From Gammaproteobacteria bacterium (GTDB taxonomy: Bacteria; Pseudomonadota; Gammaproteobacteria; SZUA-229): 64,000 nt of DNA. The notes below the pieces were generated by a model that made no database searches, was not told the origin of the DNA, and was given only the letters and a program-made list of their open reading frames with translations. Below, in pieces: positions 51,831 through 55,588 of this stretch (positions are counted from its first letter, which is position 1; the number at the start of each line of letters is the position of its first letter). The position numbers and the translations under genes were made by a program. The DNA is taken from the NCBI GenBank assembly GCA_026195255.1, contig JAPHSS010000020.1:176887-240886 (forward strand). The letters are read 5' to 3'.

Positions 51831-52544
51831 TCACACACTGGATAATAATGTATCTCTCGCTTTATTGATTTGCTGAGCCAGGTAATCGGAGCCGCCCCTG
51901 TCCGGATGCAGTTTTTGCATTAAGCGTTTGTGGGCAGTATTAATTTCTTTTTTATTTGCCGTTTCAGATACACCTAAAATATCTCTGGCCTGCTTGTCGC
52001 TCATTTCAGAGTCTGTCATTGGTTCACGATATGACTCAGAGCCGCCTTTAGCCCACTCAGGATATTTACGATCAAGATAAGCTATCAATAACGAGGCAGA
52101 TTCGGCATCTTCCTGTTTGCACTGATCAAGTAGCAACATAATCTGTTCAAGACTCATCGCCTGTAACTTTTGTCCCTGAAACTCACCTTCTAACACCTCA
52201 CCCTGCAACTCACCACTTAACACATTTATTTGTAGATGTATAAATCGCGCTGTCATCGTCGACTGATGATTTTGTCGATATCGCTGAAAATAAGGTAGAA
52301 CTGTTGGCCACACACCTATAAAAAACCGCGCCACACGCGGTATTAAAGGTAAAGTTGCACCAACTGCGGCAATCAACCAGTTGAGCCGGCCAGTCAATAC
52401 AAGAACAGCTAACAAACCCACTGATAATATTATTGCCAGGTTTTTTAAAAGCTGCTTCCTTTTAAGCGAGTCCAATCGCCTGAAAAGATATAACACATAA
52501 AAAACAACGAGCAAAATCAGTAAAATTAGGATAATACGTGGCAA
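51831..52544 (-). CDS. Membrane-anchored DnaJ-domain protein
   Basis: Hydrophobic N-terminus; C-terminal J domain ARDILGVSETANKKEINTAHKRLMQKLHPDRGGSDYLAQQINKA. Confidence 0.9.
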   Translation of the reverse strand: MPRIILILLILLVVFYVLYLFRRLDSLKRKQLLKNLAIILSVGLLAVLVLTGRLNWLIAAVGATLPLIPRVARFFIGVWPTVLPYFQRYRQNHQSTMTARFIHLQINVLSGELQGEVLEGEFQGQKLQAMSLEQIMLLLDQCKQEDAESASLLIAYLDRKYPEWAKGGSESYREPMTDSEMSDKQARDILGVSETANKKEINTAHKRLMQKLHPDRGGSDYLAQQINKARDTLLSSV

Positions 52545-52790: not shown

Positions 52791-54830
52791 CTATTTATTA
52801 TTAGAGCGCTTATAATTAATAATTATTGTCACATGGTCTCCCGGATAAATTAAGTCTGGATTTTTTATATTACTTAATTTTGCAAGCTCGGGATAACGCC
52901 ACGGATTATGCACATATCTTTTTGCAATAAACCATAACGTATCGCCCTTTACAACTACGTGAATAAATTTCTTGCTTGATATTACAGAAGAATTTTCTGT
53001 AATACCTGATACGTCCTCTGTTGTTTTATCAGCGATGCTCTTTCTCTCTTTTGATACAAACCCTGACGAACTATCGCCTGCTTCAGCCATTTTAAAAGCT
53101 CTACTTTCTACTGCACTCTGGCTCTCTACCTTGCCTTTACTTTCTATCACCATCTGCCTTTCGATAACTTTTTTACTTTCTGCAATAACCGTATGATCCG
53201 ATATATTTAACTCATCTACTTTTTCTACACCCGTTTCTTCAATAACATATTGATCTACCTTGCTTTCCCCGGACGCAGCGCTCACCTCTTTTTCCGATAC
53301 GCTATTAATTACTCTATTTTCTAAACCCACATCTTTCTGCTCATTGAAATCCGTATCGTAATCATTCACTTCAACACTATTTTCAATTAACTCATTCTCA
53401 CGAACAACATCATTTACGACAATGAGAAGCCCGTCATCATTTTTCGTTATTTCTACCGATTCATTGTCTACAATTATTTGTTGTTTCGCCGAGCTGGCTT
53501 CTACATCACTATTTTTAATAATCGGTTCGATCGCAATGATTTCTTTTTCTGTCACTACAGGTTTCTGTACTTCTGCGTAATTACTGCTTTCTGAATATTC
53601 AAGCGCCTGCGTGATTGCTCTTTTTTTATCTACCTGCAAAACGTTTTCATTATCCAGCACAACGGAGTCGAGAAAATAATAAATTCCGACCACAGCCATT
53701 AAAGCCAACAACCCTAACCAGACAATACCGTTATTATCCTGTGGTATTGGCTGAATCTTAGCGGGCCCGGCCTGCTCGCGATTAATCTCGTTATATTTTT
53801 TTACGTCACTATTTTTTTGTACTATTTCTTTAGCGAACACCTGTGTTTTAATCTTATTGCTTTTAACTGGATTTATATTATTATCTTTATTTTTTTTCGA
53901 AACCTGCATATGGTTTTTATAAAGCTTGTTATCTTCAGCTTTACTACTGTATATAGTGTTAATTTCTGACTTTCTTTCTGATGCCCTATTTGCAGGCTGA
54001 TAGCTGCTTTGTTTTTTACTTTTCTGTTTTTCGGTATCTAATTCATTAACATGTGAACTCTTTATGTTATTTTTTTCACTAACATCATCTGCTTTAACAG
54101 CCTCAGACTTCACTATCCTGGCTTTATTTATATCGCTATTTTCAATTCCTGTTTTATATATTGGAACCACATTTTCTGATGTTTCATTATTATTCTTAAC
54201 ATCACTTATTTCACTGTGTTCCTCTGCAGATATATTTACAGAATTTATATTCTCCGTTGTTATAATATCAACTGTATTCTCTTCAATAATTTGTTTTTTA
54301 GTTCCACCAGGAGAACTCGTTGATATATTTTTATTTTTTTCCTGCTGATTAGCAGCGACTTTTATCATTTCAATATGCTTACGAAGATAACCTGTTGATT
54401 TGAATTTATCCAGCTGTTCAAAGTCAGCATATAATCTGATATTTTTTTCTTCTATTAGCGTTCGACTAAATACATTTCGAGGAATATAAACAGGCACCTG
54501 AGACCAGCCTTTAGTGGGGAAACTTATAACATCTTCTATTTCATCGACCCAGAATCCTGCATGCCCCCCCTCCACCTCAACAATGACTATTTTACCCGGA
54601 TTATTCATATCCGCCTCGTCAACACCAAATCTAACCCTTAGATCAACCAGTCTCACCATACCGTGTATAGATTTAAATACACCGGGCTCCGCCGCACTCG
54701 AACCTGGGGGAACGGTTAGTTTAGGCGGTAGTGTAACGGCCTCTACAGGCATAGTTGGCGAACACACAAACACCGGCCCTACTCTGTAGAGCAATAACGC
54801 ATTTGATTCCTGAATATTATGAACTGACAA
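52791..54830 (-). CDS. CheW-like domain / transmembrane / LysM fusion protein
   Basis: N-terminal CheW-like FKSIHGMVRLVDLRVRFGVDEADMNNPGKIVIVEVEGGHAGFWVDEIEDVISFP; TM GIVWLGLLALMAVVGIYYFL; C-terminal LysM HVVVKGDTLWFIAKRYVHNPWRYPELAKLSNIKNPDLIYPGDHVTI. Confidence 0.85.
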   Translation of the reverse strand: MSVHNIQESNALLLYRVGPVFVCSPTMPVEAVTLPPKLTVPPGSSAAEPGVFKSIHGMVRLVDLRVRFGVDEADMNNPGKIVIVEVEGGHAGFWVDEIEDVISFPTKGWSQVPVYIPRNVFSRTLIEEKNIRLYADFEQLDKFKSTGYLRKHIEMIKVAANQQEKNKNISTSSPGGTKKQIIEENTVDIITTENINSVNISAEEHSEISDVKNNNETSENVVPIYKTGIENSDINKARIVKSEAVKADDVSEKNNIKSSHVNELDTEKQKSKKQSSYQPANRASERKSEINTIYSSKAEDNKLYKNHMQVSKKNKDNNINPVKSNKIKTQVFAKEIVQKNSDVKKYNEINREQAGPAKIQPIPQDNNGIVWLGLLALMAVVGIYYFLDSVVLDNENVLQVDKKRAITQALEYSESSNYAEVQKPVVTEKEIIAIEPIIKNSDVEASSAKQQIIVDNESVEITKNDDGLLIVVNDVVRENELIENSVEVNDYDTDFNEQKDVGLENRVINSVSEKEVSAASGESKVDQYVIEETGVEKVDELNISDHTVIAESKKVIERQMVIESKGKVESQSAVESRAFKMAEAGDSSSGFVSKERKSIADKTTEDVSGITENSSVISSKKFIHVVVKGDTLWFIAKRYVHNPWRYPELAKLSNIKNPDLIYPGDHVTIIINYKRSNNK

Positions 54831-54832
54831 GA

Positions 54833-55588
54833 TTATTCCATATATTTTTCCTGCCAGCTTTTATATAACTGCCAGGTGTATTCTGTAAATTCTTCTTTAC
54901 TATTAAACTGTGACGGATCTATCGCATCAAACACATAATAGTTAGCTGTACTATTTTCAGTATTCAGAAAATGATATATTTTATCCAGTAACGTATGTGG
55001 ATCTCTCCAGGCAAAATCGTCCTGTGCTTCGTAATGTAAAAAAACAGGCAAAATAGGCACACCTGTTTTCATTGAAACATCAAATGCCCCATAACGAAAT
55101 GATTCAAAAATACGTTTACCTTTACAACCACCTTCAGGGTAGAGCGCTATATTCTTGCCGTTTTCTACTTCTTTTCTTATCGTTTCTGCTGCTTTATTTC
55201 TCGAATCTTTTGATTCTCGTTTAACATAAAGATTACCCGCAGCTGATGAAATTCTACCTACCACCCACCAGTCTTTAACTTCTATTTTAGCTAATGAGTA
55301 AACCTCAAATAGTGCTGGAATACCTATATCCTCAAATGCTGAAGGGTGATTAGCAATAAGAATGTAGTTCTGGGGAATATCATTCGTATTTTTCTGATGT
55401 AATTTTAAATTAACATCCAGTGCGCGCACAAATGACTTACACCACACCCTGAAAAGACGATAATACCAATAACCCAATAAGCCTGCAGGCAACCACGACA
55501 GCACATATAAAAGAACCGTAAGCAATAAAAAATCCAGCCACATTGCTGCTAATTTCAATATTCTGGCAATATAATAAAACACATGCAC
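54833..55588 (-). CDS. 1-acyl-sn-glycerol-3-phosphate acyltransferase-like protein
   Basis: NHPSAFEDIG (NHxxxxD), ALYPEGGCKG. Confidence 0.9.
   Translation of the reverse strand: MHVFYYIARILKLAAMWLDFLLLTVLLYVLSWLPAGLLGYWYYRLFRVWCKSFVRALDVNLKLHQKNTNDIPQNYILIANHPSAFEDIGIPALFEVYSLAKIEVKDWWVVGRISSAAGNLYVKRESKDSRNKAAETIRKEVENGKNIALYPEGGCKGKRIFESFRYGAFDVSMKTGVPILPVFLHYEAQDDFAWRDPHTLLDKIYHFLNTENSTANYYVFDAIDPSQFNSKEEFTEYTWQLYKSWQEKYME

Follow-up and report, generated by a model that had tools for sequence, protein, structure and literature searches.

To our knowledge, chemosensory arrays are positioned only through multi-protein chains (ParP-ParC-HubP/FimV), or through the effects of membrane curvature and Tol-Pal. 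In these chains, ParP enters the arrays through its CheW-like domain (PMC5706961), and HubP/FimV are placed by their LysM domain (PMC8789113, PMC12918733). Here, we describe a 679-amino-acid protein encoded in the window (the whole stretch of 64,000 nucleotides that was analysed), in which a CheW-like domain and a LysM domain lie on the two sides of a single transmembrane (TM) helix. The ParP-ParC-HubP system of Vibrio is the multi-protein equivalent of what this CheW-LysM protein would join in one polypeptide.

Four groups of described proteins resemble the CheW-LysM protein in part. First, ParP (AIF domain; Vibrio and Pseudomonas) possesses a CheW/P5-like domain operating in array placement, a disordered extension (N- or C-terminal) and no NLRG arginine, but it is soluble, devoid of both TM helix and LysM domain, polar by way of ParC and HubP, and it falls outside the clade of the present family. 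Second, HubP/FimV/TspA share the periplasmic LysM domain, the single TM helix and the long low-complexity cytoplasmic part, whereas their LysM domain is N-terminal and their TPR/FimV domain C-terminal (opposite order and topology), and they have no CheW domain. Third, the CheV, CheWS, CheW-CZB and 2xCheW proteins join a CheW domain to another module, but all of them are cytoplasmic, and the literature searched describes none that also carries a TM helix plus a wall-binding module. Fourth, the CheW coupling protein has the same fold and belongs to the same Pfam family, from which the CheW-LysM protein differs by the lack of the NLRG arginine, an altered groove, the attachment to the membrane and the length of 679 aa. 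Our literature search returned no paper with both "CheW domain" and "LysM domain", the co-mentions of CheW and LysM being incidental only among the papers listed. A 2023 survey (PMC10653840) counts 30 CheW architectures in Pfam that had not been described, and the CheW + LysM combination may already be tabulated in its supplement.

Architecture of the CheW-LysM protein

The features of the locus are as follows:

52791..54830, minus strand: CheW-linker-TM-linker-LysM protein, 679 aa (open reading frame in the window)
54363..54830, minus strand: CheW-like domain, aa 1-156, Pfam match aa 12-136 (Pfam, AlphaFold2, Foldseek)
53727..54362, minus strand: cytoplasmic low-complexity linker, aa 157-368 (length maintained, sequence drifting; composition)
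53670..53726, minus strand: single TM helix with N-in orientation, aa 369-387 (from hydropathy and the charge on either side; shared across the family)
52968..53669, minus strand: periplasmic acidic linker, aa 388-621 (charge, selection, composition)
53403..53456, minus strand: short conserved periplasmic beta-hairpin, aa 459-476, VEITKNDDGLLIVVND (motif scan and AlphaFold2)
52824..52961, minus strand: LysM domain, aa 624-669 (Pfam, AlphaFold2, dN/dS)
54833..55588, minus strand: 1-acylglycerol-3-phosphate acyltransferase-like gene, upstream neighbour (Pfam; a role in the tether is not implied)

The CheW domain (PF01584, aa 12-136) was recognised at E 2e-10 with 40.9 bits, above the curated cut-off of 23.5, and the LysM domain (PF01476, aa 624-669) at E 3.5e-11 with 43.3 bits for a cut-off of 20.9; the scores, and for PF01584 also the CheW fold, place the protein in both families. 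The Pfam scan of the 679-aa protein found no other domain, and in particular no Response_reg match, i.e., no C-terminal receiver of the CheV type, which separates it from CheV. The NCBIfam scan gave no equivalog above cut-off and no FimV model, which, together with the C-terminal location of the LysM domain, separates it from HubP/FimV.

AlphaFold2, supplied with 17 aligned family members, predicted the head (aa 1-156) with a mean pLDDT of 81 and a pTM of 0.76. Against the PDB, this model produced 18 Foldseek matches with E<0.001, every one of them a structure of CheW or of CheA P4-P5, with a TM-score of about 0.7; the next-best match had an E value of 1.2. The comparison of the family profile with PDB chains by sequence yielded 2qdl (5e-14), T. 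maritima CheW (1e-10) and E. coli CheW (1e-7). Hence the CheW fold that the sequence-only reading had proposed for the N-terminus is borne out by Pfam, AlphaFold2 and Foldseek, and no other fold emerged among the significant PDB matches. The C-terminal LysM domain that it had also proposed is confirmed by Pfam. In the AlphaFold2 model of the C-terminal 224 aa, the LysM strand-helix-helix-strand is visible, a hairpin occurs 140 residues before it (pLDDT about 75-83; matching motif in 13 of the 20 members scanned), and the remainder is disordered. Because this model is mostly disordered, Foldseek gave no match under E 0.001 for the C-terminal part, and the LysM assignment therefore relies on Pfam.

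The sole hydrophobic stretch of the protein is aa 369-387 (mean Kyte-Doolittle value 2.35). Its 60-aa flanks comprise 12 K+R and 6 D+E on the N side, as compared to 6 and 12 on the C side. As positive charge precedes and negative charge follows the TM stretch, the CheW domain is placed in the cytoplasm and the LysM domain in the periplasm, the very N-in/C-out topology, with a single TM helix, that had been anticipated. The two linkers (219 and 234 aa) contain few aromatics and no Cys.

When the window protein was compared with that of the near relative L009, dN/dS amounted to 0.05 (CheW domain), 0.06 (LysM domain) and 0.72 (cytoplasmic linker); the values against more distant relatives are rough, synonymous sites being near saturation. 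Strong purifying selection acts on the two end domains, whereas the linkers drift yet remain long. In the 20 members with both ends, the minimum linker lengths are 127 aa (cytoplasmic) and 69 aa (periplasmic), with little shared sequence. With 0.36 nm counted per residue, the 127-aa cytoplasmic linker has a contour of about 46 nm, which exceeds the membrane-to-baseplate distances measured for gammaproteobacterial arrays of the F6 (24-25 nm) and F7 (35-40 nm) types (PMC7184735); the linker design therefore permits, without proving it, that the head lies in the baseplate. In the OB6 protein (L011:6001-7842), the periplasmic linker harbors consecutive VQEVQE repeats, which points to rapid change in linker length.

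The conserved hairpin beside the LysM domain, along with the existence of a sensory CheW fusion, CheWS (PMC10653840), would suit an input device, in which LysM and hairpin sense the state of the wall (growth, turnover, stress) and signal to the kinase array via the head. We regard this proposal as improbable, since conformational signals are poorly transmitted through two disordered linkers that are long and evolve fast, and Pfam recognised neither a HAMP domain nor a signalling helix or a coiled coil.

The domains, their order, the conservation of both ends and the minimum linker lengths are established, and the topology is derived from charge. Thus, the anatomy and topology given by the sequence-only reading hold; its functional claim, namely the anchorage of a chemosensory or pilus/motility complex at the cell wall, is partly supported, as the best interpretation of these features.

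Distribution and genomic context of the family

A family member occurs in 17 of the 54 genomes of the window's own family. Among 369 genomes sampled from the class, at least 12 more, belonging to eight other families, score E < 1e-20 and have long frames. When 399 genomes were sampled across the phylum (E < 1e-19), the window's own protein was the sole long-ORF member, the other matches being single-domain CheWs; so, as far as these samples go, only some gammaproteobacteria seem to possess the family. Every member whose gene 3' end is present encodes the LysM domain. In G230 (L101:5300-6500) and G178 (L106:6500-8146), LysM lies just downstream of CheW in a different frame, which is either an assembly error (frameshift) or a decayed copy. 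A frameshift or annotation fusion as the origin of the architecture, an outcome that had been envisaged from the start, is ruled out because the architecture search found it conserved in many genomes and species.

In a tree of 78 CheW-type domains, comprising the CheW, CheV, PilI, ParP and CheA-P5 domains of the window's genome and canonical CheWs from others, the 30 family domains form one side of one branch (support 100/99), with a long stem, apart from all these groups; with several long-branched rows, the tree shows this separateness, not the nearest neighbouring group. The separate clade, and the presence of a true parP gene elsewhere in the window's genome, distinguish the protein from ParP. 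The CheW-LysM proteins constitute a conserved and, apparently, as yet undescribed family in gammaproteobacteria.

The CheW-LysM gene starts with a TTG codon located 2 bases past the stop codon of the acyltransferase gene, and this spacing suggests that both genes are probably co-transcribed. The acyltransferase-CheW-LysM order is kept in eight loci of the genera g1, g4, g5 and g8, where the context is acyltransferase (plsC) and mlaA. Elsewhere, it is lptD-surA-pdxA-rsmA / apaG-apaH, rsmA with apaG-apaH being found in four genomes of other families. Housekeeping neighbours dominate, che or pil genes rarely adjoin the family gene, and an MCP gene does so in G051 and G033 only. G037 has two family copies, the second one following chpA, chpC and ung (uracil-DNA glycosylase) genes (L110:1-8511); the linker of this second copy contains a long Glu-Ala-Thr repeat.

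Downstream of the CheW-LysM gene, the window encodes a membrane protein whose C-terminal part is a DnaJ domain (51831-52544, minus strand; PF00226, 1e-7); relatives of this gene also come after the CheW-LysM gene in several other members of the window's family. In OB6 (L011:8100-11100), two genes stand between them, encoding a 376-aa protein that resembles a FIST-type sensor by eye and a GGDEF-EAL-type protein. A parC-parP-cheW locus in standard order occurs elsewhere in the window's genome (contig C47; L001:1-1938).

The FimV core was found in 53/54 genomes of the window's family, the window's own genome included, and all but one of the gene-bearing genomes of this family have FimV. The 53/54 count rules out that the protein substitutes for FimV. 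PilJ-type receptors are present in 51/54 family genomes, in every gene-bearing genome of the window's family and, overall, in all gene-bearing genomes but G347, which has flagellin. CheZ occurs in 14/17 genomes with the gene versus 9/37 without it in the window's family (Fisher 9e-5, relatedness ignored), and ParP in 22/29 genomes with the gene versus 0/8 hand-picked, non-random genomes without it, such co-occurrence statistics being confounded by relatedness. The presence of ParP in 22 of the 29 gene-bearing genomes rules out a strict replacement for ParP. Flagellin, CheZ and ParP are all absent from gene-bearing G044 and G045 (98% complete), which possess PilJ-type receptors; a strict link to flagellar chemotaxis is ruled out by these two genomes, which have neither flagellin nor CheZ.

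Divergence of the CheW-like head

We aligned 30 family members with 30 canonical CheW-type domains, using the T. maritima numbering and the MCP-groove positions of CheW taken from PMC5706961. The NLRG arginine (E. coli R62 position) is present in 30/30 canonical domains and in 4/30 family members (lost in 26/30); the window protein has Ile in this column, and thereby lacks this mark of a canonical CheW. Groove position V27, which is V/I in 30/30 canonical domains, is T, S or A in 25/30 family members, and L14, I30 and V33 are still aliphatic. The family-specific residues Cys24, Trp94 and Trp109 are near-constant (24-26/30 members).

Owing to the loss of the NLRG arginine, we removed the label "coupling protein". 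That the protein is a functional CheW paralogue, i.e., an ordinary coupling protein incidentally tethered to membrane and wall, would agree with its CheW fold, but this is very improbable given the arginine loss in 26/30 members, the separate clade with its long stem and the canonical cheW gene beside parP in the same genome.

The chief rival to an array tether is a cell-wall-anchored landmark whose head lies off the array, with a type IV pilus, a polarity factor or another SH3-fold partner as its client, which we consider possible, if rather unlikely. It would account for the loss of the arginine and one groove residue, for the conserved Cys24, Trp94 and Trp109 (24-26/30), which suggest a new surface, and for the housekeeping context and the occurrence of the gene in G044 and G045 in the absence of flagellin, CheZ and ParP. 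It is at odds with the PilJ-type receptors of all gene-bearing genomes but G347, and with the three of four groove positions that are kept. Furthermore, the ParP of the window's genome likewise has no NLRG arginine, and since ParP binds arrays in Vibrio without it (PMC5706961), the arginine loss leaves array binding by the head feasible.

A possible one-piece tether between array and cell wall

Taking these data together, we propose, at about even confidence and by analogy, that the CheW-LysM protein may be a one-piece ParP+HubP-like tether, its CheW-like head lying in or near a chemosensory array and its LysM domain on peptidoglycan. The CheW-fold head would bind a cytoplasmic chemosensory assembly, probably in a CheW/P5-like place on receptor tips or ring edges, like ParP; the long disordered linker would bridge the gap between baseplate and inner membrane; the TM helix would cross the inner membrane; and the second linker would let the C-terminal LysM domain hold peptidoglycan. 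The outcome would be the positioning or immobilisation of the array, perhaps at the pole. From ParP (PMC5706961), HubP (PMC8789113) and FimV (PMC12918733), we infer the array as partner, the LysM-peptidoglycan binding and the positioning or polar placement. In more general terms, the CheW-LysM protein probably connects chemosensory or related polar machinery directly to the cell wall.

The array-tether proposal is supported by the following lines of evidence: first, the CheW fold with three of four groove positions hydrophobic; second, the LysM domain and the conserved reach of the two linkers; third, the constant co-occurrence with chemosensory systems and the second G037 copy close to chpA-chpC. 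It is limited by the divergent clade, the lost arginine and groove residue, the housekeeping gene context, and the genomes G044 and G045 devoid of flagellin, CheZ and ParP. More tentatively still, with somewhat less than even confidence, we suggest that these proteins may represent an undescribed family of one-piece trans-envelope tethers linking arrays to peptidoglycan, independently of or in parallel to ParC/ParP/HubP, and also in non-flagellated gammaproteobacteria.

A single polypeptide carrying an array-type domain and a wall-binding domain across the membrane offers a simple, testable alternative to multi-protein chains. If the tether proposal is true, the CheW fold would have become a positioning handle on two separate occasions, in ParP and in the present family.
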